Source of the DNA: a virus
Virus record (IMG/VR): IMGVR_UViG_3300031746_000024
Coordinates: 1 to 56,344 of that record
Strand: one strand, 5' to 3'
DNA length: 56,344 bases
Shown: positions 5,577 through 53,265 of the stretch, piece after piece
How positions within the stretch are numbered: the first letter of the stretch is position 1
How the letters are laid out: each line of letters starts with the position of its first letter
Notes under the pieces: model-generated
Told to the model about the DNA's origin: nothing
Seen by the model: only the letters and a program-made list of their open reading frames with translations
Database searches by the model: none
Made by a program: the position numbers and the translations under genes

Positions 5577-5617
5577 GGACGGCGGTCGAGATGGTCGTTT
5601 CCCGACAGGAGGTCCGC

Positions 5618-6319: not shown

Positions 6320-6330
6320 GGAGCCACTCC

Positions 6331-7563
6331 ATGGACAAGAACCCCTGGACCGGCCGACTCGCGGTCGAGGTGACCGGGAAGATGGGCGGGTGCTGCGTCG
6401 GGACGATCGTCAAGTGGCGCCCCCAGAACATCGGCGAGAAGAGGACCTGCTCCTACTGCGAGTCCTACCTCAAGACGATCCGGGCGGGAGAGGTCCTGTC
6501 CCCCGTCTTCACGGGAGGGATCCTGGAGCACCACCGCGAGGTGGCGGAGCCGGAGCTGACCATCGGGGGGCTCTACTTCGCCTCCGGCAGGTTCGCCTCC
6601 GAGGAGGCCGTGAGGAAGTGGATGGCCGACCGGGACATGGCAGGGGACGTCGCCAAGGTGGATGAGCACGCCTTCTACCTCCCCGTCGACGGCTCCCTCA
6701 TGGCCGACTCCGTGCGGCTGGTCTGGGTCGCCCCCGGGGTCGTGGGCGAGATCGGGGTGTCGGAGAAGCAGGTCGCCGTTGGCGGCGGCCAGGCGTCCAT
6801 GTCCTCCCCCGGGATCACGACCACGTCCATCGCGTCGGGAGGGGACCTCTTCCCGGCGCAGGGGCCCGCGGCCTCCGCGGCCGTGGTAGAGGGGGTGCCC
6901 TCCCTCATCCAGGGGATCACCGACGCGCAGGACGGGCACCAGCACGAGTACTTCCTGACGCCCGTGCCCGAGGTGGCCGGGTGGCGGGTCAAGTCCTTCA
7001 CCTCCTTCAACAACGGGCACGCCCACATGATCGAGTGCGCCGTCGGGTCGGGCGGGGAGATCGACACCAGGACTGCCCCGGACCAGACACCGGTCGGGGG
7101 GCACGCGCACTCGCACCGGGTGGCGTGGCCGATCGGGAAGTCCGACGGGGGGGAGCCCGAGGGGCAGGACGCCGACTTCGTCCACAAGACCATGGGGGCC
7201 GTCGACGGCTTCTGCAAGGACGTGCTCGGCGGCGGGGCCATGCAGGCGATGAGCGACTTCAGGGCCAAGATGGACGGGGCGATCGAGCGCGCGAGGGGCG
7301 CGTCCCCCGGAGTCGCGCCGAGCGGGGAGGTCATCGACGCGGTCTCCGACGCGGCCGGGATGGGGAACCCCGGGAACGTCGAGTCCCTGGTCGAGTGGGT
7401 GGGGGAGAAGGGGTTCGACGGGTGCGTCGCGGCCATCAAGGGGAGCAGGCGCGCGAGCGAGGAGGTCGACGACCCCGTGAAGGTCTGCGGCTGGCTCAAG
7501 GGCCAGGCCAAGAAGAAGGGGAAGCTGGCCCCCGAGCACGCGTACGGGAAGAAGAAGGAGTGA
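6331..7563 (+). CDS. Unknown virion-type protein with repeated HxH metal-binding pairs
   Basis: 410-residue protein. The N-terminus has Cys pairs (GGCC, CSYC), a possible zinc site. The segment SGRFASEEAVRKWMAD and a following strand-rich part resemble XkdF-like phage proteins in style. The middle carries three His clusters (DGHQHEY, NNGHAHM, GGHAHSHR) that look like metal-binding turns in beta hairpins; the gene at 9402 has the same type. The C-terminus (FDGCVAAIKG...VCGWLKGQ...KKKGK) matches a short basic module, 'F..CV..I....C.W.K', frequent in phage head genes. ATG 6331 follows GAGGAG. Biochemical role unknown. Confidence 0.7.
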   Translation: MDKNPWTGRLAVEVTGKMGGCCVGTIVKWRPQNIGEKRTCSYCESYLKTIRAGEVLSPVFTGGILEHHREVAEPELTIGGLYFASGRFASEEAVRKWMADRDMAGDVAKVDEHAFYLPVDGSLMADSVRLVWVAPGVVGEIGVSEKQVAVGGGQASMSSPGITTTSIASGGDLFPAQGPAASAAVVEGVPSLIQGITDAQDGHQHEYFLTPVPEVAGWRVKSFTSFNNGHAHMIECAVGSGGEIDTRTAPDQTPVGGHAHSHRVAWPIGKSDGGEPEGQDADFVHKTMGAVDGFCKDVLGGGAMQAMSDFRAKMDGAIERARGASPGVAPSGEVIDAVSDAAGMGNPGNVESLVEWVGEKGFDGCVAAIKGSRRASEEVDDPVKVCGWLKGQAKKKGKLAPEHAYGKKKE

Positions 7564-12544: not shown

Positions 12545-14741
<2,197 letters not shown>

Positions 14742-14742
<1 letters not shown>

Positions 14743-20629: not shown

Positions 20630-21151
20630 TTGGGGATCTTCGACTGGTTCAAGGGGGAGCCCGCCCGCAGGCACAACCTGACGGACATCACCCGTGGGAT
20701 GCAGCACGCCGCGAGCACCACGACGGCGATGCTGGGCGAGCAGTTCCTGCACCTCATCAACCAGTACTTCGACAAGGAGAGGGACGGCACCCTCCGGGCC
20801 AAGGTCGCGAAGATCGAGGTGTCGCCGGGCCAGGAGATCCAGGTCCCCCTCATATCCCTCGTCCAGCCAAGCGCGATCGTCCTCAAGAAGCTCCGCCTCC
20901 GCATGTCGGTGAGGATCGAGGACGCCGAGGTCAAGATGGCGGCGAGGGACCTGATGGGAAACTCCGAGGCGACCCGCCTCTCCTTCAAGGTGAGCATGGC
21001 CCCGCAGACGGGGTTCCTGGGAAGGCGCTCCGACATCACGGACATCGAGATGACGTTCGAGGGTGTCGACGCCCCCGAGGGCATCATGCGCCTGATCGAG
21101 GAGCACACGAACTCCATCGTCCCGAGGAGGAAGTCGGAGGCCAAGCCGTGA
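20630..21151 (+). CDS. DUF2589-like protein 2
   Basis: 173 residues from a TTG start preceded by AAGGTGAT; no better start is seen. Landmarks shared with the preceding protein: VPLISLVQPS, RMSVRIEDAEV, FKVSMAPQTG and APEGIMRLIEE. The N-terminus MGIFDWFKGEP is a short amphipathic helix. It may pair with protein 1 as a heteromer. The stop overlaps the next start (GTGA). Confidence 0.6.
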   Translation: MGIFDWFKGEPARRHNLTDITRGMQHAASTTTAMLGEQFLHLINQYFDKERDGTLRAKVAKIEVSPGQEIQVPLISLVQPSAIVLKKLRLRMSVRIEDAEVKMAARDLMGNSEATRLSFKVSMAPQTGFLGRRSDITDIEMTFEGVDAPEGIMRLIEEHTNSIVPRRKSEAKP

Positions 21152-21768
21152 GAGTGCGACTCGTGTTCGCCAGGAAGGACGACTCGATCATCTCCAGGGC
21201 GATCTGCTGGTTCAGCCAGCGGAGGCGGGCGCCCGAGCGGAGGTGCTCCCATGTCATGGTGAAGTTCCAGCCGGGCGGGGTCTACGAGGGGGACTGGGCC
21301 TGCTTCGAGGCGATGGAACGAGGGGTGTGGGCGAGCCCCTACGACGTGGCCCTTGGGAAGCAGACCGTGGTGGCGGAGTTCGAGGCCGTGGTCTCGGACG
21401 ACGCTGCCTACAAGGCCATGCGGGTCGCGCTCAACCGCTACCTCTCCTGGTACTACGACTTCTACGGGATCGGCCTCTGGGCCGTCTGGATCCTGGCGAG
21501 GCGGTGGTTCTGGACGCCCCTCCACTGGCTCGGGGTAACCTTCCGGCCGGGGACGGCGAGCAAGGCGCTGTTCTGCTCCGGGCTCGCCCTCCAGGTCGTC
21601 AAACTCATGGAGCAGATGGACCCGTCGGCCGACCTCGGGATGAGGGGCCTGACCGCCAGGACGTCCACACCGCAGAACGAGATCGACGTCTGCTTCGACA
21701 GCCCGAAGGGGTGGAGGGAGGTCAAGACGGAGGAGAGGCTCCAGGAGGCCCTCTCCGCCAAACCTTGA
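21148..21768 (+). CDS. Permuted papain-like (YiiX/NlpC-type) hydrolase
   Basis: 206 residues from GTG. The permuted papain pattern is present: a first His in CSHVMVKF (H35), a second core helix, and the Cys nucleophile in LFCSGLALQVV (C143), as in YiiX/YebB-type enzymes. These cleave peptide, amide or ester bonds; in phages they occur as virion or lysis-associated hydrolases. The third catalytic residue is not clear. A Trp-rich stretch (GLWAVWILARRWFW) may be a membrane-touching loop. The stop overlaps the -35 of a promoter for the next unit. Confidence 0.65.
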   Translation: MRVRLVFARKDDSIISRAICWFSQRRRAPERRCSHVMVKFQPGGVYEGDWACFEAMERGVWASPYDVALGKQTVVAEFEAVVSDDAAYKAMRVALNRYLSWYYDFYGIGLWAVWILARRWFWTPLHWLGVTFRPGTASKALFCSGLALQVVKLMEQMDPSADLGMRGLTARTSTPQNEIDVCFDSPKGWREVKTEERLQEALSAKP

Positions 21769-21793
21769 CGCAAACGACGCGGGGGGATACGTT
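21765..21793 (+). promoter_or_regulatory. Candidate promoter for the head module
   Basis: TTGACG (21765-21770), 17 bases, TACGTT (21788-21793). It overlaps the stop codon of the papain-like gene and lies 25 bases before the ATG at 21819. The -35 is near consensus and the -10 is weaker. Confidence 0.5.
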
Positions 21794-21818
21794 AGGATTG
21801 TCTTTTGGGGAGTCGACG

Positions 21819-22172
21819 ATGGGAGCCTCCGAAGGGACCTACCAGCCGGAACGCGGCTTCATGAGCGGGGCCGGGGACTTCGAGATCGTGGCGGGGGCGC
21901 GGTACCACCCCTACCGCCTCGCCACGATCCTCTGGGAGCGCAAGAATGTCACCCCGGTCGACATCTTCATCGAGGTGCTCGACGGGGACAAGGTCTACGG
22001 GGTCGACCAGGTGCTCGGCTGCGCCTGCAAGCTCTACGCGTGGCCGAACTCCGCGAGTCCCTTTCATGTCTGTCTCGTGCCTGACATGCGGGTGCGGTTC
22101 CGAGTGACCGGGGCCGTTGCCGGTGAGGTGCAGTCCGCCGTCATCGTGTGGGCGGAGCTGGGGGCCATCTGA
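21819..22172 (+). CDS. Unknown 117-residue strand-rich protein
   Basis: First gene after the candidate promoter. Strand-rich (DIFIEVLDGDKVYGV, MRVRFRVTG, QSAVIVWAEL) and without helix-rich parts, which fits a beta-sandwich decoration or adaptor protein. It lies 21 bases before the portal gene. Not recognised. Confidence 0.65.
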   Translation: MGASEGTYQPERGFMSGAGDFEIVAGARYHPYRLATILWERKNVTPVDIFIEVLDGDKVYGVDQVLGCACKLYAWPNSASPFHVCLVPDMRVRFRVTGAVAGEVQSAVIVWAELGAI

Positions 22173-22192
22173 CCCAAGGTTTGGGGGATACC

Positions 22193-24256
22193 ATGGAAGA
22201 AGGGATCAAGGAGACGCTCGGGGAGGCCCTGGTGGCCAAGGACGTCGGGCCCGAGAGCCTGGAGAGCATGGTGAAGGTTCTCCTCATCGGGGGCAACGAC
22301 GTCGAGAAGGCGCGGAAGGAGGGCGGAGGCGACGAGGCCACGCCGGTCTCGAAGCAGCTCGGGGACTTCCAGCAGATAGTCGGGGAGTTCGTCCCGCCGC
22401 CGTTCAACCCCGGAATCTGGGCGCAGACACTCAAGATCAACACACGCCTCGCCAGGTGCATCCGGTCGTTCGCGAGGAACACCGTCGGGCTCGGGTGGGC
22501 CATCGAGCCGGTCCACACGATCACGGAGGAGACGCCGGAGGAGGACAAGAAGGCGGTCGCGGAGCAGACCGAGGCCCTCCGGAAGTTCTTCGGCTACCCG
22601 AACCCGCTGATGCCGCTCACCGAGATCTTCTACCTGGAGAAGGTGGACGAGGAGGCGACGGGCAACGGGTACGTCGAGGTGGTGAGGAACAACGCGGGAA
22701 GGATCGTCCGGATGTTCCACGTGCCGTCGGTGACCATCCGCAAGCGGATCATCAAGGAGGGGAACCAGAGCGTGGTCTCCGGCTTCGTCCAGATCCGCGG
22801 GAGCCAGAAGAGGTACTTCAAGGACTTCGGGGACAAAAAGGTCGTGGACGCGTTCTCGGGTAAGGCCTACGAGGGCCAGGGCGCGCTCCCGGCAGAAAAG
22901 CGGGCCACCGAGATCCTGCACTTCCTCATCTACGACCCGGGCAGCTCCTACTACGGGGCCCCGAGGTACACGCCCGCGGCGACGGCCATCGCCGGGAACC
23001 GACAGGCGGCCATCAGGAACGTCAACTTCTTCGAGAACGACGCGGTCCCGCGCATGGCCCTCCTCGTGTCCGGCGGCAGGGTCAGCGGCGAGTCCATGCA
23101 GCAGATCGAGGACTTCGTCCGGGCCAAGGGGCGCGGGGTGGAGAACGCGCACCGCGTCATGATCGTCCAGGTCGAGCCCCTCAAGGTCGGGTTCCAGCAG
23201 CAGAACAAGGTCCAGGTCGAGCTGAAGCCCCTGACCGTCGGGGTCACCGAGGACGCCTCCTTCTCGCAGTACCGAGAGGCGAACGACGAGGAGGTCCGCG
23301 AGATCTTCGGGCTCGGGCAGATCTTCTTCAAGGCCGAGGGCGCGAACAGGGCGAACGCCCAGGTGTCGAGGGAGATCACCAACGAGCAGGAGCTGGAGCC
23401 GGACCGCCTGTCGAAGGAGTACGTGATCAACCAGACCATCGTCGAGGACATCCTCTTCCAGCTCATGGGGGCGACGGGCGACGAGACGGACGAGGAGGTC
23501 GAGGAGTTCAGGAAGAAGGTCCACGTCCGGTTCCGCTTCGCCAGGCTCACGCTGACCGACCCGCTCGACGAGGCGAGGATGAACCAGATCTACGCATCCC
23601 TCGGCGCCATCACGCCGAACGAGATGCGGGAGAGCATGGGCAAGGCACCGTACCCGAAGGACTACTTCTTCGCGGACAAGCCCCTCGCCATCGCCATGGC
23701 CGAGCTCACCGCGGGGCTCGCCCTGGCGATCTCGCAGAAGGAGGAGGAGGCGCCGCCGCAGCAGGGGATGCCCGGCATGGCCCCCGGCATGGAGGAGCAG
23801 CCCGGGGGGGAGCCCGCGCCCGACTGGTACGACGAGGGAGGGGAGGAGGGCGGGGAGCCCGCCGAGGAGGGCGGGGAGCCGCTGCCGGACTGGTGGGAGG
23901 GGCAGAGGAGGGAGCGGCTCGGGTCGGTCCCGCCCGCCGCGGGGCAGCCGCCGGTTCCTGGGACGCTGCCGCTGCCGCCGCCGACCGGGCTGCCCGGGGC
24001 GCAGAACGCCCCCGGCATGGAGACGCTCCCCCAGCCGGGCTCCTTCCAGAAGCCGCCGAGGAAGCCGAGGGTGCCGAAACCAACGAAGGGTATTGCGTCC
24101 CTCCACGGGGCGCGGGTATCATCGAGGAAGTACAAGTCTCTTACGCCGGATCCCCGAGCGATGGGGATCCTGATGGAGCTCATGAGCGACGTGCGGAGGT
24201 TCGCCCTCTCCTGGGCGGGCCTCTCGGGGGGAGAAGGAAATGGACAAGACCGCTGA
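22193..24256 (+). CDS. Portal protein
   Basis: 687 residues; dodecameric DNA gate at the capsid vertex. Portal features of the PBSX/SPP1-like type: LARCIRSFARNTVGLGW near the N-terminus, GNGYVEVVR, the stem-like YYGAPRYTPA and FFENDAVPRM, then YVINQTIVEDILF. Residues about 516-575 are an unusual Glu/Pro/Gly-rich linker (GGEEGGEPAEEGGEPLPDWW) and the C-terminal tail is basic. The order portal, protease-scaffold, capsid confirms the call. ATG 22193 follows TTGGGGGA. The end overlaps the protease gene by 17 bases. Confidence 0.92.
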   Translation: MEEGIKETLGEALVAKDVGPESLESMVKVLLIGGNDVEKARKEGGGDEATPVSKQLGDFQQIVGEFVPPPFNPGIWAQTLKINTRLARCIRSFARNTVGLGWAIEPVHTITEETPEEDKKAVAEQTEALRKFFGYPNPLMPLTEIFYLEKVDEEATGNGYVEVVRNNAGRIVRMFHVPSVTIRKRIIKEGNQSVVSGFVQIRGSQKRYFKDFGDKKVVDAFSGKAYEGQGALPAEKRATEILHFLIYDPGSSYYGAPRYTPAATAIAGNRQAAIRNVNFFENDAVPRMALLVSGGRVSGESMQQIEDFVRAKGRGVENAHRVMIVQVEPLKVGFQQQNKVQVELKPLTVGVTEDASFSQYREANDEEVREIFGLGQIFFKAEGANRANAQVSREITNEQELEPDRLSKEYVINQTIVEDILFQLMGATGDETDEEVEEFRKKVHVRFRFARLTLTDPLDEARMNQIYASLGAITPNEMRESMGKAPYPKDYFFADKPLAIAMAELTAGLALAISQKEEEAPPQQGMPGMAPGMEEQPGGEPAPDWYDEGGEEGGEPAEEGGEPLPDWWEGQRRERLGSVPPAAGQPPVPGTLPLPPPTGLPGAQNAPGMETLPQPGSFQKPPRKPRVPKPTKGIASLHGARVSSRKYKSLTPDPRAMGILMELMSDVRRFALSWAGLSGGEGNGQDR

Positions 24257-26047: not shown

Positions 26048-27448
26048 ATGGAGACGGCCGCTCAGGGAAGAGGGGTCGGCGGGCTGAACGAGGAGATGAT
26101 CGAGAAGACGATCACCACGGGCGACCTGCTGACAGGCGGTTTGCTGAACCCGATCCAGCAGACCCAGTTCATCACCCTCGTCAAGAAGTTCTCGGTGCTC
26201 CTGCCCATCAGCCGCTTCATCCGGATGCCGCGGCCGCTGATGGACGTGGACAAGCTCTGGATCGGGGAACCGGTCACGGAGTCCGTGGACGAGGCGACGG
26301 ACACTGGCAACCTGGCCCGCGCCAAGTTCCAGCGCATCGTCCTCCGCGCCCAGAAGGTGCGGAGCGCCTGGAACATCACCACCGAGGTGCTCCAGGGGAA
26401 CATCGAGCAGAACGAGTTCGAGCAGACCGTGATGAACACCATGGTCGAGAGGATCTCGACCGACCTCGAAGACCTCGCCATCAACGGCGACACCACCACG
26501 GTCGGGACCACGCCCCGCGACCGCCTGCTCCGCCGCCTCAACGGCTGGAACGTGGCGTCCGAGGGGGCGCACATCCTGGACGCCAAGGGGTCGAGCATCC
26601 AGAAGGGGCTCTTCTCCGAGATGAAGCGCCGGATGCCGAAGCAGTACAAGAACGACCCCGGCCTGCGCTGGCTGGTGGGCGACGCCATCGCCACCGACTG
26701 GGCGGACGTGGTCTCCGACCGCGGCACGATCCTCGGCGACGCCGCCCTCCAGGGCGCCGAGATGGCCCCGCTGGGCACCCCGATGATCCGCGTCCCGCTG
26801 ATCCCGGACGACGCCCCGATCACCATCCTCCAGGCGACCCGCGGCGAGTTCCTGGGCGCGGAGTTCGGCCCGTTCGTCATCTCCTCGACGAACGACACGA
26901 TCAAGATGCAGGTGGACGGCGCCCCGGGCCCCGGAGTCACGATCGTGCTGACCCACGGGACGCTGAACACGGTCGAGGTCGCCAGGCAGATCAACGCCGC
27001 CCTGAAGGCCGCGATCGCCACCCTCGTCCAGGACGTGGCCCGCGACGACCGCGAAGGCCGCCTCCTGATGGAGAGCCCGGTGGTGGGTGCCGCGAGCTCG
27101 ATCACCCTCATGTCGGTGGCGACGGGCGTGCAGGCCTACACCACGCTCGGCCTCCTCGGCGCTCCCCCGTTCCCCGGACCGCCGCCGTTCTGGCCGGTGG
27201 CGAACGTCACCCACAGCGGCGCGGCGGCCGGCACGGCCAACACGGTGTACGAGGGGTCGTACATCTGGCTGGTGAACCCGAAGAACTTCGTGTGGGGCAT
27301 CCTCGACGGGACCCGCATCTTCACGGAGTTCAACAAGAACACCGACCAGATCGAGACGATCGTGTACAACCAGGTGGACGCCCAGGTCGAGAACGTCGAC
27401 GCCTGCGTCAAGGCGAAGAACATCCGGCGCCGCACGCTGGTCATCTGA
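26048..27448 (+). CDS. Major capsid protein (HK97 fold)
   Basis: 466 residues, preceded by AGAGGAGG. HK97-like parts: the N-terminal arm, the P-domain helix LEDLAINGDTTT, GLRWLVGDA, and the A-domain strand YIWLVNPKNFVWGILDG through TIVYNQVDAQVEN. An extra domain at about residues 277-372 (NDTIKMQVDG, LTHGTLNTVEVARQINAAL, LLMESPVVGAASSITL) lies between A-domain strands; its style matches the flagellin/hook IN motif. A Pro/Gly linker (PPFPGPPPFWP) follows it. Codons shift to CGC and GGC, unlike the neighbours, as expected for the most translated gene. Confidence 0.93.
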   Translation: METAAQGRGVGGLNEEMIEKTITTGDLLTGGLLNPIQQTQFITLVKKFSVLLPISRFIRMPRPLMDVDKLWIGEPVTESVDEATDTGNLARAKFQRIVLRAQKVRSAWNITTEVLQGNIEQNEFEQTVMNTMVERISTDLEDLAINGDTTTVGTTPRDRLLRRLNGWNVASEGAHILDAKGSSIQKGLFSEMKRRMPKQYKNDPGLRWLVGDAIATDWADVVSDRGTILGDAALQGAEMAPLGTPMIRVPLIPDDAPITILQATRGEFLGAEFGPFVISSTNDTIKMQVDGAPGPGVTIVLTHGTLNTVEVARQINAALKAAIATLVQDVARDDREGRLLMESPVVGAASSITLMSVATGVQAYTTLGLLGAPPFPGPPPFWPVANVTHSGAAAGTANTVYEGSYIWLVNPKNFVWGILDGTRIFTEFNKNTDQIETIVYNQVDAQVENVDACVKAKNIRRRTLVI

Positions 27449-27474
27449 TCGGCCACGGACACCATGAATCCGAG

Positions 27475-27516
27475 ACGGCAGGTCGGCCCCGGAAGGGGTT
27501 GGCCTGCCGTTTTTGT
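27475..27516 (+). terminator. Strong rho-independent terminator after the capsid gene
   Basis: ACGGCAGGTCGGCCCC - GGAA - GGGGTTGGCCTGCCGT, a 16-bp stem with GU pairs, followed by TTTTTGTTT. It would end or thin transcription after the major capsid gene, so capsid mRNA is more abundant than that of the following connector genes. Confidence 0.92.
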
Positions 27517-27523
27517 TTCGGTC

Positions 27524-27552
27524 TGGACGGTCCCCGGCGCGGCGTGTAGGAT
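27524..27552 (+). promoter_or_regulatory. Promoter restarting transcription after the terminator
   Basis: TGGACG (27524-27529), 17 bases, TAGGAT (27547-27552), placed 8-36 bases behind the terminator T run and 20 bases before the gene at 27572. It lets the connector and tail genes be transcribed separately from capsid. Confidence 0.6.
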
Positions 27553-27571
27553 GGGGTGAGGAGGTCCTTAC

Positions 27572-27955
27572 ATGCCGAGGTACTTCGTGTACCGGTACGG
27601 AGGGGTCCGCCAGGTCATAGGGCCGGGCAGCGGACTCGCGTACACCTTCTCGATGGACACCGTCACCACGGTGGGCGACGAGAGGGACGCGGAGATATTC
27701 CTGCACATGGGGTCCCCGGACAGCGGGTTCTACCTGTTCCGGGAGACGGACCAGTACGGGAACCCGGTCGGGCCGTTCCCCCCGGTGGACCCGGCGAGGC
27801 GCCAGAGCATGATCGACCCGAAGAGGTTCCCGTCGGACAGGATGTCGGGGAGCGTGAGGGCGTGGAGGGTGGCGACCGAGGACATGGCGGACCCAACCCT
27901 CTATTTCCACTTCGTCCGCAGGAAGATGAACTTCGGGCGGGGGGAGCAGTCGTAG
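27572..27955 (+). CDS. Unknown protein after the capsid gene
   Basis: 127 residues preceded by GAGGAGG. Strand-rich N-terminus (MPRYFVYRYGGVRQVIG) with AEIFLHMGSPDSGFYLF and YFHFVRRKMNFG near the end. Its place between capsid and connector genes suggests a head-decoration or completion protein; no family recognised. Confidence 0.65.
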   Translation: MPRYFVYRYGGVRQVIGPGSGLAYTFSMDTVTTVGDERDAEIFLHMGSPDSGFYLFRETDQYGNPVGPFPPVDPARRQSMIDPKRFPSDRMSGSVRAWRVATEDMADPTLYFHFVRRKMNFGRGEQS

Positions 27956-29947: not shown

Positions 29948-31290
29948 TGCCGGTCCACGTCTACTGCATGAGGGGCGGGGTGGGGACCCCGGCGCCGGTA
30001 CTCCCGGCGACGGTGTCGAGGGCCTTCGTCGACCCCGAGGTGGGGACCATGCTGCGCAAGCTGAACCCGGACGAGACGGCCTACGACGCCGGTGGGGCGT
30101 ACTACGAGGCCGAGGTCTCGTCGCCCAACCTGGTGGGGGAGAAGATCACGGAGCTGTTCGCCTTCCAGGCGTTCTGGGGCGTGGAGCCCGCCATACCGGG
30201 CCTGCCGCCGTCCCAGGCGGCCGCCGTCGCGTTCCAGGTGTCGAACGACGGCGGGGCCACGTGGCTGGTGTGGCAGGACTCCGTCTCGTCGTGGGTCCCG
30301 GCCGCCGGGCCCCTGCTCGGGTTCTTCAACGACGCCCTCACGGTGGACCGGAGGATCCCCCTGCTCCCGTGGGGGGACCCGCACCAGGTGCGGTTCCGCG
30401 TCAGGATGACCCCCGGGGCGGGTGGGCTCCAGAGGCCGGTGGTGTACGGGCTCGCCCTGTTCAACCGGCACGACATGGACATCTCCGAGGACTGCGCGAG
30501 GTCCGTCAAGAGGCACCTCGACGACGTCGTCAAGGTGCCCATGTACTACATGGCCGAGCTGGCCGTCCCCTCCGCGACGATAACCATCGAGAGCGGGATC
30601 GGGCTCGACGTCAGCGTGCGGGAGCCCATCAAGGTCTACAACCTCACGGCGGACCCGGCCAGGAACGTCAACCTATTCTCCTCCCTCGGGGGGCCGGACG
30701 GGAGGACCATCTCGATGGTGGCCGTGCAGGCCGGGCCGGTCGAGGTCCAGTTCACCGGGGTGCCGGACGTCTTCATCGGGGCCGAGGAGTTCTTCCAGGT
30801 CAGCAAGATGCCGTCGGTGGTGGTCTTCACGCCGAGCATGTCCCAGTACAACCCCACGAGGCACTGGTGGCCCGAGCCGGAGGTGTCGCAGTCGAGGGGG
30901 GTTGGGAGGCTGATGCGCCCCCGGCAGTTCTACAAGATCGACATGTCCATCCGGGTCCAGTCCTCCCTGAACAGGGAGGCGAGGCAGATGACGGACGCGG
31001 TGGTCCGCGTCCTCGACGTGGGGATGTACTTCGACTCGGTGGCGAACGGGGAGAGGTACTGCGTATTCGCCCAGGAGAGCAGCGTCAGGGAGGACCGGGT
31101 GGCGCAGGGGATCTGGATCGGGGCCGTGAACATCGTCGTCTTCGGGAAGATGTGGATCGCCGAGGAGGCGGGCGAGGTGGAGACCGTCAGGCAGATCGTG
31201 GCCTCGGTGGGGGCCCAGCACACTTGCAACTTGCTTTTGCCGGAGCACCTCCGTAGAGTATACCGGGAGAGGATCGAGGTCTCCGAATAG
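29947..31290 (+). CDS. Unknown large tail or neck protein
   Basis: 447 residues from GTG, with GAGGAGAT upstream. Strand-rich and without coiled coils. A region with VAFQVSNDGGATWLVW and later RVRMTPGAGGLQRPVVYG suggests beta-sandwich domains; the C-terminal 130 residues (RQFYKIDMSIRVQSSLNREARQM, then IWIGAVNIVVFGKMW) resemble tail-terminator proteins in outline. Possibly a tail-completion protein fused to a decoration domain. It precedes the sheath gene in the same unit. Not firmly recognised. Confidence 0.55.
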   Translation: MPVHVYCMRGGVGTPAPVLPATVSRAFVDPEVGTMLRKLNPDETAYDAGGAYYEAEVSSPNLVGEKITELFAFQAFWGVEPAIPGLPPSQAAAVAFQVSNDGGATWLVWQDSVSSWVPAAGPLLGFFNDALTVDRRIPLLPWGDPHQVRFRVRMTPGAGGLQRPVVYGLALFNRHDMDISEDCARSVKRHLDDVVKVPMYYMAELAVPSATITIESGIGLDVSVREPIKVYNLTADPARNVNLFSSLGGPDGRTISMVAVQAGPVEVQFTGVPDVFIGAEEFFQVSKMPSVVVFTPSMSQYNPTRHWWPEPEVSQSRGVGRLMRPRQFYKIDMSIRVQSSLNREARQMTDAVVRVLDVGMYFDSVANGERYCVFAQESSVREDRVAQGIWIGAVNIVVFGKMWIAEEAGEVETVRQIVASVGAQHTCNLLLPEHLRRVYRERIEVSE

Positions 31291-31583: not shown

Positions 31584-33572
31584 ATGCCTCTTGCCGGAAT
31601 TGAGACACTGCATCCCGACGTGTTCGTCATCGAGCAGGCCGGGATCCCGCGCATCGTCGGCGTCAGCGTCAACACGGGCGGGTTCGTCGGGATCACCGAG
31701 AAGGGGCCCACGGACAGGGCCGACCTCGTCACCAGCACGACCCAGTTCGTCGAGAAGTACGGGGACTACTACCTGGGGTCCCTCCTACGCCCCTCCGTCC
31801 AGGCCTTCTTCGACCAGGGCGGCGCGCGGTGCTTCGTAGCCAGGGTGGTCGGGCAGGGCGCGACCATCGCGGACACGATGCTCGTGAACCACGAGGGCAA
31901 CGCCGCGATCGACGCGAACGCCATCTCCGAGGGCGCGTGGGGGAACAACGTCTCCCTCTCCACGGAGCGGTGGAGGGCGACGATCGCCGCGGCCACGGTC
32001 GGATTCGGCTCGACCCAGATCCCGGTGTCCTCGCTCCGCAACGCGAAGCTCGGCGACCTCGTCCGGGTCTACGACCCTGTGAGCCTGAACGTCGCCTACG
32101 CGTTCGTGGTCTCCATCGACGTGGCGAACCGGTTCCTGAACGTCAGGCCCGTCCAGGGACTCCCCGCCGGGTTCACCTTCCCGGTAGGGAGCCTGGTCCA
32201 CTGCGCGACCGACCACCGCCTGGTGACGGCGACCGCCGAGGCCCTGGCGAACGGGGCCACCTCGGTGGTCCTGGCCAACACCGGGAACCTGGCCGTCGGG
32301 GCGCGGGTGTACTTCGACGACGGATTCAACTACGCGTCGGTCATCGTGGACAGGATCGACGGGAAGCAGATCCGGTTCCAGCCCATTTCCATCACGGCGG
32401 GCGCGACTCTCCCCTCGGGGACCCTCGCGGCCTCGATGGAGTTCAACCTCAAGGTCTACGAGAAGGGGAAGTTCCGCGAGTCCTTCGAGGGGCTCTCGAT
32501 GGAGAGCACCTGCACGAGGGACTACTTCGGCATCCGGCTCGCCGGGCAGTCGAACGAGTCCAAGATGATCTCGGTCGTCGACCTGTTCCCGGCCCTCGCG
32601 GACCTGAACATGGCGGTCCCGATGCCGGTGGTGAACCAGGGGTTCAACGGGGGGACCGAGGGCGCGGTGGTCACGGACAACGACTACATCGGGTCCGACA
32701 CGAGCCCGAAGAGCGGGATGTTCCTGCTCAGCGAGTCGCCGGACCTCAACTTCTTCTCGATCCCCGGCGTGGCGACGGTGGCGGTCTCGAAGGCCGCGGC
32801 GGACTGGGCCGACCTCATGCAGAGGTTCGTGGCGGTCCTCGACGCCCCGCTGGCCTACGACGAGCCGATGGAGGTCATCAACTTCCGCAACATCGAGGCC
32901 AACTTCGACACCTCCTACGCCGCCCTGTACTACCCGTGGGTGATCGTGCGGGACCCGAACAACGCGAACGCCAGGATGGCCCTCCCGCCGTCCGGGTTCG
33001 TCCAGGGCGTGTACGCGAACATCGGGGCGACCAGGGGCGTCCACTACGCCCCCGCCAACGTCGCCCTGCGCGGGGTCCTCGACCTGACCTACAACGTGAG
33101 CGACGGGGAGCAGGACCTCCTGAACCCCATCGGGATCAACGTCATCCGGTCCTTCCAGGGGGAGGGGATCCGGGTGTGGGGGGCGAGGACGCTGACATCG
33201 TACAAGGACGGGCGGCACTACGTGAACGTCCGGCGCCTCCTGAACTACATCAAGGAGTCGCTCCGCACCGGGCTCCGGTTCGCCATCTTCGAGCTGAACG
33301 AGCAGAGGACCTGGCAGACCGTGGAGCAGGCGGTGTCCGAGTTCCTCGGCTCCATGTTCCAGAGGGGGATGCTCTTCTCCCCGGACGGGACGCCGGACCG
33401 GGCGTTCTTCTGCAAGTGCGACTCCGAGATCAACCCCGACTCCGAGAGGCGCGAGGGGCGCATGAACATCGAGATCGGGGTCAACCCTCCGCTGCCCGCC
33501 GAGTTCATCGTCTGCCGGATCGGCCTCTGGGACGGCGGGAGCACGGTCGAGGAGGAGCTGGCCCGGAGGTAG
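31584..33572 (+). CDS. Tail sheath protein
   Basis: 662 residues. Contractile sheath subunit. The N-terminal core (HPDVFVIEQ, GVSVNTGGFVGITEKGP) and the C-terminal core (GIRVWGARTLT, YVNVRRLLNYIKESL, FLGSMFQRGMLF, EFIVCRIGLWDGG) are family landmarks. An inserted domain at about residues 135-285 made of short beta repeats (KLGDLVRVYDPVS, NLAVGARVYFDDGF) would project from the sheath surface. AAGGA lies before the ATG. The next genes are the tube proteins. Very secure. Confidence 0.95.
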   Translation: MPLAGIETLHPDVFVIEQAGIPRIVGVSVNTGGFVGITEKGPTDRADLVTSTTQFVEKYGDYYLGSLLRPSVQAFFDQGGARCFVARVVGQGATIADTMLVNHEGNAAIDANAISEGAWGNNVSLSTERWRATIAAATVGFGSTQIPVSSLRNAKLGDLVRVYDPVSLNVAYAFVVSIDVANRFLNVRPVQGLPAGFTFPVGSLVHCATDHRLVTATAEALANGATSVVLANTGNLAVGARVYFDDGFNYASVIVDRIDGKQIRFQPISITAGATLPSGTLAASMEFNLKVYEKGKFRESFEGLSMESTCTRDYFGIRLAGQSNESKMISVVDLFPALADLNMAVPMPVVNQGFNGGTEGAVVTDNDYIGSDTSPKSGMFLLSESPDLNFFSIPGVATVAVSKAAADWADLMQRFVAVLDAPLAYDEPMEVINFRNIEANFDTSYAALYYPWVIVRDPNNANARMALPPSGFVQGVYANIGATRGVHYAPANVALRGVLDLTYNVSDGEQDLLNPIGINVIRSFQGEGIRVWGARTLTSYKDGRHYVNVRRLLNYIKESLRTGLRFAIFELNEQRTWQTVEQAVSEFLGSMFQRGMLFSPDGTPDRAFFCKCDSEINPDSERREGRMNIEIGVNPPLPAEFIVCRIGLWDGGSTVEEELARR

Positions 33573-40469: not shown

Positions 40470-40751
40470 GTGGGGTGCTGCGGAAGGAAGTCGAGGGTGG
40501 AGGCGAGCCCGGTGCCGAGGGGGCACGCCGTCAGGGAGATCGCCGTGCGGCCGGTCGCCATGCCGATGACGCCGCCCGCCCCGCCCAGGCCGCCCGCCGG
40601 GTCGCCGGGGTTCTCCGCGACCATCCAGCCGACCAAGACAGTCGTCTGCAAGAGGTGCGGGGCGCGGCTCGCGCTGAAGCACGTGTGGAGCGGGCGCCTC
40701 CGGCGGTACTACGACGTCTCGTGGTGCCCCGGATGCGGGAAGGGGGGGTAG
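40470..40751 (+). CDS. Unknown zinc-ribbon protein
   Basis: 93 residues from GTG with AGGAGGT five bases upstream. The Pro-rich middle (MTPPAPPRPPAGSPG) is disordered; the C-terminus has CKRCGARLALKH and WCPGCGKGG, a four-Cys zinc ribbon. Its stop overlaps the start of the truncated gene at 40752. Confidence 0.65.
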   Translation: MGCCGRKSRVEASPVPRGHAVREIAVRPVAMPMTPPAPPRPPAGSPGFSATIQPTKTVVCKRCGARLALKHVWSGRLRRYYDVSWCPGCGKGG

Positions 40752-40908
40752 GTGGTCCTGAGGTTCGTCGTCGCCGTCGCCCTCGTCGAGGCCGTGGTGG
40801 AGATCACGTCCACGGCGGAAGTGTTCGAGGGCGTCCGGGCATGGCTGGCGGGCAGGGGAGAAAAGCCCCGGAAACTGGGGATTTTCGCCCGGTGTGGCTA
40901 CTGCCAAA
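40752..40908 (+). pseudogene. Truncated copy of a DUF1360-like gene, broken by the homing endonuclease
   Basis: From GTG 40752 the frame reads ALVEAVVEITSTAEVF, RAWLAGRGEKPRKLG and FARCGYC. It lines up with the first 56 or so residues of the complete gene at 41709 (IVLVEAVVEICAEGEIF, RAWLAGRGDKPRKIG, FVRCPYC), then stops being related where the endonuclease insertion begins. The frame runs on to 41384 through unrelated endonuclease DNA. It keeps the GC-rich codon style of the phage. Confidence 0.75.
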
Positions 40909-40932
40909 AAAGTCCTTGCGGTTATTGCCAAA
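40893..40932 (+). repeat. Imperfect direct repeat at the insertion junction
   Basis: TGTGGCTACTGCCAAA (40893-40908) and TGCGGTTATTGCCAAA (40917-40932) match at 13 of 16 bases, and both encode CGYCQ. The pair marks the left border of the endonuclease insert, in the CxYC codons of the target gene. Confidence 0.7.
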
Positions 40933-40944
40933 CAGTAGTATTAT
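40916..40944 (+). promoter_or_regulatory. Promoter of the homing endonuclease gene
   Basis: TTGCGG (40916-40921), 17 bases, TATTAT (40939-40944), in a short AT-rich patch just before the ATG at 40951. A selfish gene with its own promoter can be expressed independently of the phage late unit. Confidence 0.6.
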
Positions 40945-40950
40945 GGGGAC

Positions 40951-41739
40951 ATGAAGAAGATCAGCGAAAGCACTGCGGCCAGGATCGCGGACCTCTACAG
41001 GGAGGGGCACTCCTCCTACAAGATAGCCGAGATGCTGGGGGTGGGGCACAGTGCCGCGAGCAAGTACGCGAGGTGGCTCAGGATCTCCAGGACGAGAAGC
41101 GCGGCAAGCGTCCTCGCCCGGTTGAGGGACACGGAGATCAACGTCGAGTTCTTCAAGGAGTGGAGTCCCAACCTCGCATATCTTCTCGGAATCATCTGGA
41201 CAGACGGATGCCTCGGGAAGACTACTCGGGGGGAACAGGTGATCCTCTCGATGAAGGAGTCGGAACTCCTTGGGAAGATCGGGGAAGCCACGGGGGCCAA
41301 GGTCTCGCAGCACAGGAATCGAAAGGAGTGGATCTGGACGATTCGATTCAGCCTTTTGACGGTCGTTTCCTGGTTCAAGGATAGGGGACTCACGGGCAGG
41401 AAATCCTTCACGGTCGAATGGCCGAAGGGGTTGCCGGAGGGCCTGGAGATTTCTTTCGTTCGGGGGCTCATAGATGGGGACGGGTCGTTCGGGATCGACA
41501 AGAGGAACGGGTCTCTGATGTTCGGGTTCGTCTCGGCCTCGGAGGTCTTCGCAAGGCAGATGAGGGAGTGGCTCGGGGCGCGGGTTGCCGGAGGGAGCTT
41601 CTTCTGCGAAAAGGGTAGGTACTGGAGAATACGGTACGGCGGTCGGGGGGCAGAGAAGATCCAAGAGATGCTGTCTCCGAAGGATGGGGAGTGGGGGCTC
41701 GATAGGAAATGGAAGATGTCCTCTGGAAGTTGCCGATAG
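40951..41739 (+). CDS. LAGLIDADG homing endonuclease
   Basis: 262 residues. The N-terminal helix-turn-helix (SSYKIAEMLGVGHSAASKYARWL) would bind DNA. Two LAGLIDADG helices follow: LAYLLGIIWTDGCLG (from residue 75) and FVRGLIDGDGSFG (from residue 169), each with the catalytic acidic residue. The two-motif design acts as a monomer on a long asymmetric site. Codons are clearly less GC-rich than in the flanking baseplate genes, and the gene brings its own promoter. It ends inside the restored copy of the target gene. Confidence 0.93.
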   Translation: MKKISESTAARIADLYREGHSSYKIAEMLGVGHSAASKYARWLRISRTRSAASVLARLRDTEINVEFFKEWSPNLAYLLGIIWTDGCLGKTTRGEQVILSMKESELLGKIGEATGAKVSQHRNRKEWIWTIRFSLLTVVSWFKDRGLTGRKSFTVEWPKGLPEGLEISFVRGLIDGDGSFGIDKRNGSLMFGFVSASEVFARQMREWLGARVAGGSFFCEKGRYWRIRYGGRGAEKIQEMLSPKDGEWGLDRKWKMSSGSCR

Positions 41740-42119
41740 CGATTGTGCTCGTAGAGGCGGTCGTTGAGATCTGCGCCGAGGGGGAGATTTTCGAGCCCCT
41801 CAGAGCATGGCTCGCCGGGAGGGGAGATAAGCCCCGCAAGATCGGTGTGTTCGTGCGTTGCCCCTACTGCATGTCGGTTTGGATGGCAGTCGGAGCGGCC
41901 TACCTGCTCCAGGTCATGGGGGTCTTCGGGTGGATGGGGTGGTTCGAGCCGGTCCTGTGGGGATTTTTGATCCACCGGGCGTCGAATCTGTGGCACGAGG
42001 TCGTGTCGAGGCATCTGGGGCGGGTGCCTTTCACCCTCTTCATGCGGACCTGGAGGCACGAGGAGGTCGAGGCGAAGCCGGAGGAGAGGAAGGGGGATGG
42101 TGGAGCCGCTACAGGGTAA
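41709..42119 (+). CDS. DUF1360-like small membrane protein, intact copy
   Basis: 136 residues overlapping the endonuclease by 31 bases. Membrane-like N-terminal helix (LWKLPIAIVLVEAVVEI), the charged RAWLAGRGDKPRKIGVFV, then RCPYCMSVWMAVGAAYLLQVMG, where CPYCxSxW is the family signature, and a second hydrophobic segment. The tail is Glu-rich. The first half uses codons like the endonuclease; from about 41890 the codons look like the phage again. This suggests a chimera from donor and recipient. Role unknown; possibly a late membrane protein. Confidence 0.75.
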   Translation: MEDVLWKLPIAIVLVEAVVEICAEGEIFEPLRAWLAGRGDKPRKIGVFVRCPYCMSVWMAVGAAYLLQVMGVFGWMGWFEPVLWGFLIHRASNLWHEVVSRHLGRVPFTLFMRTWRHEEVEAKPEERKGDGGAATG

Positions 42120-43248
42120 CTCGATGCCGTTCTCCGAGCGGCGATATTACGGATGCTACCGTGGCACGGTCGCGGACAACCTCGACCCCCTGCGCCTCGG
42201 GCGGGTGAAGTGCAGGTGCCACGAGGTCCTGGGGCTGGAGATGACGACGGACTGGGCGGCCTACAAGGGGGGGCCGTTCGGGGGCGACCTGGACTGCGGG
42301 GTCTTCGCCCCGCCGGACGTCGGCGCGGCGGTGTTCGTCGAGTTCGAGAGCGGGGACGTGAACCGGCCCCTCTTCACGGGTACCTGGTGGGGGCAGAGGA
42401 AGGGGATGCCGCCGGAGACCCCGGCCCTGGCGAGGGCCGACGGGCAGACGTGCTGGAAGACAGACCCGAGCACCTCGGCCCCGAAGGGAATCGACCAGTT
42501 CAGGAGCGCGACCAACGAGGACCAATGCCAGCCCATCTCGCCCCTGCGGGCGAAGGGGCCGCCGCAGTACCCGTGCAACAAGGTCCTCAAGACGAAGAAC
42601 AACGGGATCACGGTCGAGATCGACGACACGCCGGGGAGGGGCAGGATCCACATCTGGCACGGCCCGTCGAAGTCGTGGGTCGAGATCGACTCCGGGGGCG
42701 AGCTCTCGGTCAGGGTGGCCGGGAAGTCCTACGTCCTCGTGGAGGCGGACGACCGGCACCACGTGAAGGGGGGTCGCCACGCCCTGGTCGAGGGGGACGA
42801 GACGGTCCGCGTCGGGAAGGACCGGTGGCTGAGGGTCAAGGCGAACGAGACGCGGGAGGTCGGGGGCCTGCGTGACACGTTCGTCACGGGCAAGGAGCAG
42901 AGGGTGAACCAGGCGGGGCTCGACGGGTTCGTCGTGGGGGAGGAGCAGAGGGTGGACCAGGGGGGGCTGAAGCACTGGACCATCGGGGACCGGGTGGACG
43001 TCGTGGTCGGGAACTGGACGCAGTGGGTCGTCGGGAACCTCCAGACCAACGTGTTCGGGAACTACGACCGCATCGCGGCGGGCAACATCAGCGACGTCGC
43101 CAGCGCGATCGCCCACTCGAAGGGGACCCCGACGGGGGCGCCTCCGGTCCCGCCGGTCCAGCCCCAGCCCCCGCAGCCGGTCCAGCCCCCGGGGTGCCCG
43201 GTCACCCCGCCCGACTTCACGTGCCCCCCGACGCCCCCGGCCCCGTAG
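42097..43248 (+). CDS. Baseplate spike protein (gp5/gpV-like)
   Basis: 383 residues. An OB-fold begins with YYGCYRGTVADNLDPLRLGRVK, written here as YYGCYRGTVADN and DPLRLGRVKCRC, typical of gp5/VgrG proteins. After a linker, a series of short beta-helix steps such as VGKDRWLRVKANETREVGG and VVGNWTQWVVGNLQTNVFGN builds the spike needle. The Pro-rich tail (PPVQPQPPQPVQPP) is unusual for the family. The start is ATG 42097, inside the previous gene's end. The PAAR tip gene is two genes later. Confidence 0.9.
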   Translation: MVEPLQGNSMPFSERRYYGCYRGTVADNLDPLRLGRVKCRCHEVLGLEMTTDWAAYKGGPFGGDLDCGVFAPPDVGAAVFVEFESGDVNRPLFTGTWWGQRKGMPPETPALARADGQTCWKTDPSTSAPKGIDQFRSATNEDQCQPISPLRAKGPPQYPCNKVLKTKNNGITVEIDDTPGRGRIHIWHGPSKSWVEIDSGGELSVRVAGKSYVLVEADDRHHVKGGRHALVEGDETVRVGKDRWLRVKANETREVGGLRDTFVTGKEQRVNQAGLDGFVVGEEQRVDQGGLKHWTIGDRVDVVVGNWTQWVVGNLQTNVFGNYDRIAAGNISDVASAIAHSKGTPTGAPPVPPVQPQPPQPVQPPGCPVTPPDFTCPPTPPAP

Positions 43249-49665: not shown

Positions 49666-52600
49666 ATGGGTCTTCTTGCCCTTGTCAACAACCAAGGTTT
49701 CAACACCCCGGTAGGGTACGCGGAACCGGGTGGTGTGGCTACCGTTACCATCCTCGCCGGTGACATTCTCGACGTCAACGGAAACCTCGACATCAGCGGA
49801 GGAACCCTCACCCTCCCCGTGGGATACCTCGCGACCCTCGACGCCGCAGACCTTGGATCCGGCGCGGCCACGGTCGGACAGGTCCTCACGGCTGACGGGG
49901 CGGGCAACTCCTCGTGGGCAGCCGTGCCCGGGGCCTCCGAGTCCCTGGACGACGCCTACGTGTTCGGGAACACCATCAACGTCAAGGCGGCAGACGGGGC
50001 CGTCACCATCCAGAACAACACGAACGCCGACACGACAAACACCCTCACGGTGGGCCGTGCCCCTTCCGGGGCCACGGCTGGCGTGGGCATCTCCCTTTCC
50101 ATGGGTGCCAACACGACCGGGGTCGGGTTTAGCGAGACGGCCTCCGGTTCCGGAGACGCCGCCGTCTTCAACAACATCGGCACGGGGAAGGCCATCTCCA
50201 TCCAGGACAATGGTACGCCGGTCATCGAGGTCGCGGCGAGCGGGGCGGCAGCGGTCACCCCGACGAGCGGCACGAACCTGACCCTCACCACGGCAGGGGC
50301 GGGCGTCGTGGACATCAACTCCGCCGCCGGGGTTACGGTCGATTCCGCGACCCTCACGGCGACCACGACTGGGGTGATGGACCTCGACGCCTCGGGAGTC
50401 ATGAGCCTCAACACCACTGGGGCCAACGCGATCAACATCGGAAACGATGCCACCACGGGAACCATCAGCATCGGCACCGGAGCCGCAGCCCGCACGGTCA
50501 CCGTGGGGAATACCACGGGGGCCTCGGCAACAGACATCAAGTCCGGAACCAACGGCGTCAACATCGCGGACGCCGTATCTTCCATCGACCTGAGCGGAGC
50601 GGGAGTCCTCACGGAAGCCGGGCTGGTGAGCGCGGACCTCACGCCATCCGGAACACTCACCTTGCAGGGTGGCGGACTCAGCAAGTTCGGCGACGACACG
50701 GGGGTCTGGAGCTTCGACGGGGTGGGGGCTCTCTCGACTTCGGGAATCACCACGGCGGATGTCCAGACCTCGGGAGCGATCACCATCGACTCCTCGGGTG
50801 GTTCGATCGGCGTCGGAACCGACGCCAACGCGCAGGCCATCAACCTCGGCACCGGAGCTGCGGCCCGCACCATCACTATGGGAAACATCACGGGGGCCAC
50901 GGCCCTGGTCCTCAACTCCGGAACGGGAAACGTGGACATCAACGCGACCGGGGCCGGGGGCGTCACGGTCGATGCAGGGGCGACCGGGCTTGTCTCGATC
51001 CAGGGAAACGCGAACTCCGACTTCTCGGTCGCTGGCGCGGGAGTGGACCTGAGCCTTCTCGCCGTGGGCGGGTCGGTCGCCATCTCGGCCTCCGAGGCCA
51101 TCGCCACGGCCTTCAACGTCACCGCCTCGGCTGGCGGGATCGAGATGGACTCTGCTTTGACAACGGACATCGAGGTTGCTGCCGGGCAAACCCTCAAGCT
51201 CGGAGCCGACACGGTCGCCCAGACGGTCAACCTCGGCACGGGAGCGGCGGCCAAGACCGTGGCCATCGGAAGCACGAACACCACGTCGGCTACCGACATC
51301 TACTCCGGGTCGAACGGGCTTACCCTGAACGACGCCGTGTCAAACCTCGACCTGACGGCGGGAGCCCTCACGGAGGTGGGCCTTGCCAGCGTGAACCTCA
51401 CGCCTTCGGGGGCCATGACCCTGCAGGGCGGAGGGATCAGCAAGTTCGGAGATGACACCGGGTACTTCAACTACGACGGGGCCGGAGCCCTTACGACTGT
51501 CGGGATCACCACGGCGGACCTGGACGCCTCGGGAGCCATTACCATCGGCGGGACGAGCGCCACGGCGGTGAACCTCGGGAGGACGGGCAAGGAGACCCTG
51601 GTCAACGGCAACCTGACCGTGACGCAGAACCTGACGGTGAACGGGACGACCACGACCGTCCACTCGGAAGAAGTCAACATGGCGGATAGCACCCTGTTCC
51701 TAAACGACGGGAACACGGTGAGCGCGACGGGGGAGCCGGGCGGGTTCGTGGTGAACTTCAAGGCGACGCCGGTGAACACGAACACCGTGGCTACGGGCGT
51801 GTTCACACCGGGCAACGCCGGGGCGAACGCCAAGGTCACGGTGGCCGCGAGCGTGTTCTCGGCGGGCGACCTGATCAACATCAAGGGATCGACATACAAC
51901 GACGGCCTCTTCGAGGTCAAGATCGACGCCGCAGGGGTGCTGACCATCCAGAGCGTCCCCGGCCTGACGGGACCGAACCAGTCCTTCGTTCAGAACCAGT
52001 TCGTGACCGAGACGAACACGGCGGTCACCATCACGGGGGCCAACGTCTCCGTGATGCGGTGCGACGCGAGCGGCGACATGCAGATGGGCAAGGGCAACAC
52101 CACCACGGGCTGGACGTGGGCGGCGGTCGGATCCACGACCGGAACGACCCTCCAGGTCGCCTACAACAACTCCGGATCGCCCGCGACGATCACCACGGCG
52201 GGGGGCAAGAACGTCCAGCTTGCCGGGACCGAGAGCCTCGACTCGAACATCCCGGTCTCGATCGACAAGGCCAACACCGCATCTCTCTTGACGGTCGGAA
52301 ACGGGGCCAACAACGAACTGGTCGTGTCCTCCACGACCGGAGCCGAGGCCCTGACGATCGGCGGTGCGGCCCTCGGCGTGAACACCGAGATCAACACCAA
52401 GGACAACAACGCGAACGGCTTCGTGGTCCAGACCCCGGACGGGAACGACTACATCAACGTGAACACCACGAACGCCGGACCCACGGTAACCCTCTGCAAC
52501 GGGGCCGACAACGCGGCCCTGACCCAGGCCGGTTCCGGACAGGTCACGCTCAACGGAAACGTGAACGCCGTCAGCGGCGTCGATGTGACAGGGGCGGACC

Positions 52601-53265
52601 TGACGGTCGGCGGGAAGACCACCATCGCCCAGGCGACCGGAAGCATCGAGACGACCGCCGGGGCCGACCTCACCATGAAACAGGCGGGTGGGGCCACGGT
52701 GCTCGACATCGACGGGGCCACGGGCGACCTGAACCTCCGCGAGAGCGCGGACTTCAGCATGTTCAAGGCCGGTGGGGCGGCTGCGTTCTCGGTGGACGGG
52801 GCCACGGGAAATACCATCGCCAAGGGGACGGTCACGGTCGGGGCGAACGGGGAGATCAGGGTGAACGAGTTCGGGGTGCAGGTGCTATGCACCGCCGTGG
52901 CGGTCACGGGGGTCACGGCCAACCTTCCCGCGAAGTTCACCGGGACGTACATCGTGAGCAACGCCGTGGGCTGCACCGCCGAGAACGATTTGACGGTTCT
53001 TGTCACGACGCAGACCGTGGGTCCCGGGCTCCCCGTCTGGTGCACCTGCCCGGGATCGCTCGCCATCGTCAAGTACAACGGCGTGGCTGCGGCTGCGGTA
53101 GGGATGCTGGTGGCGACGGACCCGGCGGTGAACGGGGTGGTCCCCTACGACGAGATGGTCACGGTGGGGAAGAAGCTCCAGAAGATCGGATGGATCACGA
53201 AGGTCGTGGGCGACGGGAACGCCCACATCATGTTCCAGCCTTCGACCGACAACACCAAGCTGTAA
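49666..53265 (+). CDS. Long repetitive fibre protein
   Basis: 1199 residues, the longest gene. It is beta-rich and poor in charge, with repeated units: INLGTGAAARTVTVGN, INLGTGAAARTITMGN and VNLGTGAAAKTVAIGS; LTPSGTLTLQGGGLSKFGDD and LTPSGAMTLQGGGISKFGDD; single steps such as LVNGNLTVTQNLTVNG. This is the look of a trimeric beta-helix shaft. The last 150 residues (from about VTVGANGEIRVNEFGVQV, then LPVWCTCPGSLAIVKYNG) form a head domain. The N-terminus MGLLALVNNQG resembles that of the spike at 53926. AAGGAGGA precedes the ATG. Confidence 0.85.
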   Translation: MGLLALVNNQGFNTPVGYAEPGGVATVTILAGDILDVNGNLDISGGTLTLPVGYLATLDAADLGSGAATVGQVLTADGAGNSSWAAVPGASESLDDAYVFGNTINVKAADGAVTIQNNTNADTTNTLTVGRAPSGATAGVGISLSMGANTTGVGFSETASGSGDAAVFNNIGTGKAISIQDNGTPVIEVAASGAAAVTPTSGTNLTLTTAGAGVVDINSAAGVTVDSATLTATTTGVMDLDASGVMSLNTTGANAINIGNDATTGTISIGTGAAARTVTVGNTTGASATDIKSGTNGVNIADAVSSIDLSGAGVLTEAGLVSADLTPSGTLTLQGGGLSKFGDDTGVWSFDGVGALSTSGITTADVQTSGAITIDSSGGSIGVGTDANAQAINLGTGAAARTITMGNITGATALVLNSGTGNVDINATGAGGVTVDAGATGLVSIQGNANSDFSVAGAGVDLSLLAVGGSVAISASEAIATAFNVTASAGGIEMDSALTTDIEVAAGQTLKLGADTVAQTVNLGTGAAAKTVAIGSTNTTSATDIYSGSNGLTLNDAVSNLDLTAGALTEVGLASVNLTPSGAMTLQGGGISKFGDDTGYFNYDGAGALTTVGITTADLDASGAITIGGTSATAVNLGRTGKETLVNGNLTVTQNLTVNGTTTTVHSEEVNMADSTLFLNDGNTVSATGEPGGFVVNFKATPVNTNTVATGVFTPGNAGANAKVTVAASVFSAGDLINIKGSTYNDGLFEVKIDAAGVLTIQSVPGLTGPNQSFVQNQFVTETNTAVTITGANVSVMRCDASGDMQMGKGNTTTGWTWAAVGSTTGTTLQVAYNNSGSPATITTAGGKNVQLAGTESLDSNIPVSIDKANTASLLTVGNGANNELVVSSTTGAEALTIGGAALGVNTEINTKDNNANGFVVQTPDGNDYINVNTTNAGPTVTLCNGADNAALTQAGSGQVTLNGNVNAVSGVDVTGADLTVGGKTTIAQATGSIETTAGADLTMKQAGGATVLDIDGATGDLNLRESADFSMFKAGGAAAFSVDGATGNTIAKGTVTVGANGEIRVNEFGVQVLCTAVAVTGVTANLPAKFTGTYIVSNAVGCTAENDLTVLVTTQTVGPGLPVWCTCPGSLAIVKYNGVAAAAVGMLVATDPAVNGVVPYDEMVTVGKKLQKIGWITKVVGDGNAHIMFQPSTDNTKL

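Follow-up and report, generated by a model that had tools for sequence, protein, structure and literature searches.

The window analysed here is the whole 56,344-nucleotide stretch of IMGVR_UViG_3300031746_000024, the record of an uncultivated tailed phage. Its tail operon carries, in order, a zinc-ribbon gene (40470-40751), a 5' fragment of a DUF1360-like gene, a LAGLIDADG gene, a complete DUF1360-like gene and a gp5-like baseplate gene (42097-43248), and the last four of these lie on the plus strand. The fragment (40752-40908; GTG start, 52 codons) is the native beginning of the interrupted gene. The LAGLIDADG homing endonuclease gene (40951-41739) encodes 262 amino acids and matches Pfam LAGLIDADG_3 above the cut-off (E=5.5e-8). 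The complete gene (41709-42119) encodes 136 amino acids; its DUF1360 match (E=4.8e-4) falls slightly short of the curated cut-off, and phrog_781 is matched with E=4e-7. A preliminary description of this DNA had reported the fragment and the complete copy at these positions, separated by the LAGLIDADG gene, and had aligned the starts of the two DUF1360-like proteins, RAWLAGRGEKPRK and RAWLAGRGDKPRK. The alignment holds over about 51 residues with a score of 178, against a maximum of 59 among 876 mismatched flank pairs. The reading frame of the complete copy is intact and conserved, and its product should be expressed and functional.

The endonuclease combines an N-terminal helix-turn-helix with two LAGLIDADG motifs (LLGIIWTDG and RGLIDGDG) in which the acidic residues are present. 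AlphaFold models it (mean pLDDT 89) as two LAGLIDADG domains built of helices and sheets, and the best Foldseek match in the PDB is I-Tsp061I (2dch, E=2.7e-9). Pfam, the two motifs, the AlphaFold model and Foldseek agree on the family, and the model suggests a two-motif enzyme whose fold is apparently intact. The gene is free-standing, with its own start and stop. A strict sigma-70 scan ahead of it found no promoter; the sequence TTGCGG-N17-TATTAT is weak, and we do not claim it as a promoter of the endonuclease. By contrast, one of the related cases described below (case iv) has TTGACA-N17-TATCTT and an AGGAGG.

The structure of the locus becomes clear from comparison with relatives, as the preliminary description had anticipated. 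These are contig g1 (L006), about 80% identical to the window, and five genomes yielded by a tail-sheath search (L040, L041, L043, L044 and L045). A single complete, uninterrupted DUF1360-like gene, with no endonuclease there, is found in L006, L041, L043, L044 and L045. The L040 contig ends inside the gene, but the copy is uninterrupted as far as it is present and no endonuclease precedes it. Further afield, annotated phages gave no match either to 6 kb of DNA surrounding the locus or, by tblastn, to the DUF1360 protein. Bacterial and archaeal genomes searched for DUF1360 and for the tail sheath gave none, so that no host was found.

Window positions 40771-40908 are identical to L041 19479-19616 over 138 bp, and the same 138 bp occur in L043; positions 41877-41905 are identical to L041 19619-19647 over 29 bp, and L043 also matches after the break. 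Elsewhere, exact matches between the window and L041 reach at most 57 bp (in the capsid gene). Because L041 and L043 match exactly up to the break and again beyond it, the boundaries of the inserted unit can be set at 40909-41876, that is, 968 bp standing in place of the 2 bp (GT) present at the empty site. The L041 site reads ...GGCTACTGCCAAA/GT/GTTTGGATGG... (empty-site sequence, GGCTACTGCCAAAGTGTTTGGATGG; restored site of the window, CCCTACTGCATGTCGGTTTGGATGG), and the single insertion point lies between the CGYCQ codons and the S-V-W codons. This refines the earlier account, which had taken CPYC for the native motif; the closest empty-site alleles have CGYC. The unit consists of a leader, the endonuclease gene and 56 codons (41709-41876; sequence, MEDVLWKLPIAIVLVEAVVEICAEGEIFEPLRAWLAGRGDK) that form a diverged version of the start of the interrupted gene. 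This replacement front overlaps the 3' end of the endonuclease gene by 31 nt and joins the native 3' part (41877-42119) to form one 136-amino-acid gene. Compared with L006, the replacement front is 68% identical in nucleotides and the downstream part 87%, and codons at shared residues are identical at 16/35 positions in the front and 46/58 downstream (p=0.001). The foreign front stops precisely at the insertion point and, as judged from this coincidence, behaves as part of a putative mobile unit. The same anatomy suggests that the predicted cleavage site coincides with the insertion point.

The flanks of the unit differ in affinity from their surroundings. Identity between the window and g1, its otherwise closest genome, is about 80% in the sequence left of the gene; in the left tract (40771-40908) the window is 100% identical to L041 versus 65-95% to g1. 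On the right, the sequence from 41877 to about 41990 (the end is approximate) resembles L041 and L045, with up to 97% identity, and from 42009 onward it is 85-97% identical to g1 and only about 40-70% to L041. Third-position GC is 0.85 in the fragment, 0.80-0.84 in L041 tail genes and 0.96-0.98 in the tail genes of the window, so that the fragment fits the former and not the latter. With both sides switching to L041/L045-like sequence, we read this pattern as the co-conversion footprint of homing; co-conversion at the site is a classical mark of that process (PMC2988022). The donor would have been L041-like and would already have held the unit, and conversion would also have covered some 138 bp of left flank and roughly 110 bp of right flank. 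A donor phage combining the endonuclease with L041-like flanks was not found, the L041-like genomes obtained all being endonuclease-free. The preliminary description had proposed that the endonuclease and the 5' half of the donor gene came from a related phage, and comparison with the relatives bears out the insertion site, the replacement and the transfer at base resolution.

Codon use had also been invoked, the complete copy being said to start in endonuclease-like codons and to return to phage-like ones. The first half of this statement stands: the endonuclease scores -0.03 bits per codon and the front half of the second copy -0.15, against a phage median of 0.93. The second half does not, since the back half (0.07) is atypical too, as is the 5' fragment (0.12), both lying within a tract that resembles a different phage. 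Codon use was too weak to locate the junction, for which it had been suggested together with identity; the junction is placed by identity to the relatives.

As noted earlier, CGYCQ is encoded twice. The second copy (CGYCQT, 40917-40936) lies within the insert, at its left end, and shares 15/20 bases with the native site, a level reached by none of 108 control 42-mers from the endonuclease gene and by 2 of 300 shuffles. This degenerate copy of the target site is probably the remnant of an earlier host gene.

The contigs of the window type that bear the insert are near-identical, so that the insert is known from a single independent occurrence. Near-identical contigs do differ elsewhere: a gene with collagen-like GPTGPTG repeats shows a difference of about 740 bp between the window (13033-14742) and G002 (20769-23219), and a large, repeat-rich probable tail-fibre gene (window 49666-53265, G002 58140-61640) is replaced between phages otherwise 99.8% identical.

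Contig g1 is without the window's unit but has three other LAGLIDADG genes (cases ii-iv, the window being case i), and in all three a 5' fragment of a structural gene precedes the endonuclease and a complete gene follows no more than 10 bases after it. In case ii (L006 5326-6268), the gp5 fragment MVEPLQPNSMPFAERRYFGTFGR precedes the endonuclease at 5438-6268, and a complete gp5 gene follows that has a different front and starts in an ATGA overlap. In case iii, the native tail sheath gene has its first eight codons (MALAGIET) joined in frame to the endonuclease, a 187-amino-acid ORF (g1 6237-6800, reverse complement of G001), and the complete sheath gene runs from 6811. Case iv has the fragment MGQSTAIITRRLFDEAKRYVQ from g1 30433, the endonuclease at 30559-31275 and the complete gene from 31277. 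The uninterrupted counterparts are supplied by the window for case ii (the gp5-like gene at 42097-43248) and case iii (the tail sheath gene at 31584-33572, plus strand), and by the sister contig g2 for case iv. Residues are mostly kept in cases i, iii and iv, with codons diverging much more strongly in the replaced part than beyond it: where a residue is shared, the codon is identical at 3/11 positions in the front versus 421/545 downstream in case iii (p=7e-4) and at 6/19 versus 433/586 in case iv (p=2e-4). In case ii it is mainly the protein sequence that has diverged (p=0.44 in the codon test). The restored starts in all four cases lie between 31 nt inside and 10 nt past the endonuclease stop, each with a Shine-Dalgarno-like sequence; the unit therefore appears to supply a new start signal as well, an anatomy that suggests coupling of the start to the endonuclease. 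As a separate observation, the G001 reverse complement has at 677-2176, between two structural genes, a 499-amino-acid frame that by eye could be an endonuclease; the window (27448-27572) is without it.

About 145 other viral LAGLIDADG genes were surveyed in two sets (~73 and 71), their flanks being compared only with each other. Among the ~73 genes of the first set, three on unrelated contigs have a significant pair of flanking gene ends: a nucleotidyltransferase in the N-terminal form with an antisense endonuclease (L139), a primase in the C-terminal form (L098) and an HNH-like gene in the C-terminal form, again with an antisense endonuclease (L067), these gene names resting on motifs rather than family searches. 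No clear case emerged from the flank scan of the 71 genes of the second set. The scan is blind to short fragments and missed g1 cases ii and iii, so that the frequency is a lower bound. Other candidates that scored (L206, L207/L208, L075 and L108) were set aside as tandem endonucleases or as repeats that do not form a pair of gene ends, and the related endonucleases of Taj, RcMrWorf, HGTV-1, Jenst, Jada and Lbo-JY46 have other arrangements, such as a domain within a methylase or a split polymerase. In Taj (L056 2339-4012) and RcMrWorf (L061 2249-3982) the LAGLIDADG domain lies within a DNA methylase gene beside the DPPY motif, with no obvious intein. LAGLIDADG matches in long frames of 939 and 936 amino acids (G002 89761-89928 and G009 61809-61967) are probably inteins.

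The observed anatomy, empty sites, sequence switches and recurrence make it highly probable, in our view, that the locus holds a self-rescuing, free-standing LAGLIDADG unit in a tail gene, and one can envision how its cutting, homing and repair would proceed. An endonuclease gene would have entered the tail gene without an intron or intein, the gene being kept whole because the unit brings a diverged substitute for the front end that it severs. In a mixed infection, the enzyme would cut the CGYCQ/SVW codons of an empty gene, and repair of the break would copy the endonuclease and the replacement front from the donor, together with some flank. The recipient would retain the upstream 5' fragment as a relic, the rebuilt gene would be read from the start that the 3' end of the endonuclease gene provides, and the altered left half-site of the rebuilt gene should make it resist cutting. 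The model of the preliminary description, which had much of this scheme, is supported and appears largely right.

Several other explanations deserve consideration. An older tandem duplication of the gene, followed by endonuclease invasion and decay of one copy, would account for two similar gene starts in such proximity, and the preliminary description had named relatives with both copies and no endonuclease as its expected sign. None of the relatives compared has two copies: five carry a single complete gene without the endonuclease, and the partial locus of L040 agrees. Moreover, the end of the fragment and the start of the native 3' part meet at one point of the L041 gene, 2 bp apart, which a duplication does not predict. 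The relatives largely refute this explanation, and we regard it as very improbable. Somewhat less so, but still unlikely, is a conventional intergenic endonuclease that cut the neighbouring gene at a distance, co-conversion bringing in the front of the donor gene and end joining sealing the left end to leave the relic; the replacement front would then be a one-time accident and not part of a mobile unit. Free-standing T4 endonucleases do cleave at distances of hundreds to thousands of bases (PMC2988022), and a first insertion and later rounds are indistinguishable from architecture alone. However, the L041-like flanks on both sides imply that homology-based copying from an L041-like donor brought in the entire unit together with its relic; the replacement stops exactly at the insertion point and not at a random crossover; the degenerate target copy at the left end suggests an earlier round; and the arrangement recurs at four genes.

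LAGLIDADG enzymes often reside in introns or inteins, and conserved motifs are where group I introns interrupt genes, so that an intron of this group, or an intein, with an incidental duplication of the gene front also comes to mind. Yet a search of 40500-42300 with the Rfam intron families, at E values up to 5, returned no match except a chance hit, the downstream copy is a complete gene that has a start of its own, and the frame of the fragment in case i continues out of frame with the endonuclease; we consider this explanation extremely improbable. Metagenomic contigs are sometimes chimeric, but an assembly artefact is hardly credible given that an identical 3.3-kb region occurs in three other contigs, and its last 2.9 kb in a fourth, from other samples.

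The self-rescuing unit inspires analogies with mobile elements of fungal mitochondria. In Glomus, endonuclease ORFs have a foreign C-terminus, which is expressed, on one side and the native C-terminus on the other; the pattern was first reported for atp6 of Allomyces macrogynus and is found in atp6, atp9, cox2 and nad3 of Glomus sp. (PMC3630166). As in these elements, the ORF here sits within a coding gene, between the native and the foreign version of one gene end, and the hybrid frame is open. The hybrid gene is expressed in Glomus; ours is predicted from an intact, conserved reading frame. Furthermore, the fungal ORFs replace the C-terminus, upstream of the ORF, whereas in the window the replaced end is the N-terminus, downstream; L098 and L067 have the C-terminal form. 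The fungal ORFs are organellar, whereas this one is in a phage and comes with a base-exact empty-site allele and flank co-conversion. By its sequence organization, we see in the unit a phage equivalent of the fungal elements in which the opposite gene end is replaced.

Among phages, the free-standing SegA-G and MobA-E of T4-like phages are likewise intronless endonuclease genes with flank co-conversion, but they are GIY-YIG or HNH enzymes rather than LAGLIDADG. They either occupy intergenic positions and cleave at some distance or, like mobE in nrdA of Aeh1 and mobA in gene 60, divide a gene into two parts that both work (PMC2988022). The endonucleases of introns and inteins share with ours the family, the fold and the insertion in a conserved coding motif; there, splicing removes the insertion, whereas here the gene is kept by replacement, with no splicing element. 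The review of phage homing covers introns, intergenic sites and split genes and describes no replacement gene ends (PMC2988022), and a 2023 survey of phage nucleases, in the portion available, treats interruption by introns and inteins (PMC10448857). We found no description of replaced-end homing units of phages in the open-access literature, though an earlier report may exist. The logic of cutting an essential gene while carrying a recoded working version is common to synthetic home-and-rescue and cleave-and-rescue drives (PMC7968924, PMC7951863); these being engineered CRISPR systems, the likeness is one of analogy only.

Whether viruses harbour a widespread class of self-rescuing endonucleases with diverged, cut-resistant replacements for gene ends, a third way beside introns and inteins of occupying essential genes, is a proposition for which we judge the chances evenly balanced. 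If it were true, the translation start of the gene would be tied to the endonuclease, making the unit hard to lose, and natural viral homing elements would use the home-and-rescue logic designed for gene drives, a reading behind which stand several independent examples, an exact empty site and a transfer footprint. For annotation, the lesson is that a gene copy found truncated next to an endonuclease can be what homing left behind. It is tempting to see in such units a route to the mosaic structural genes of phages.
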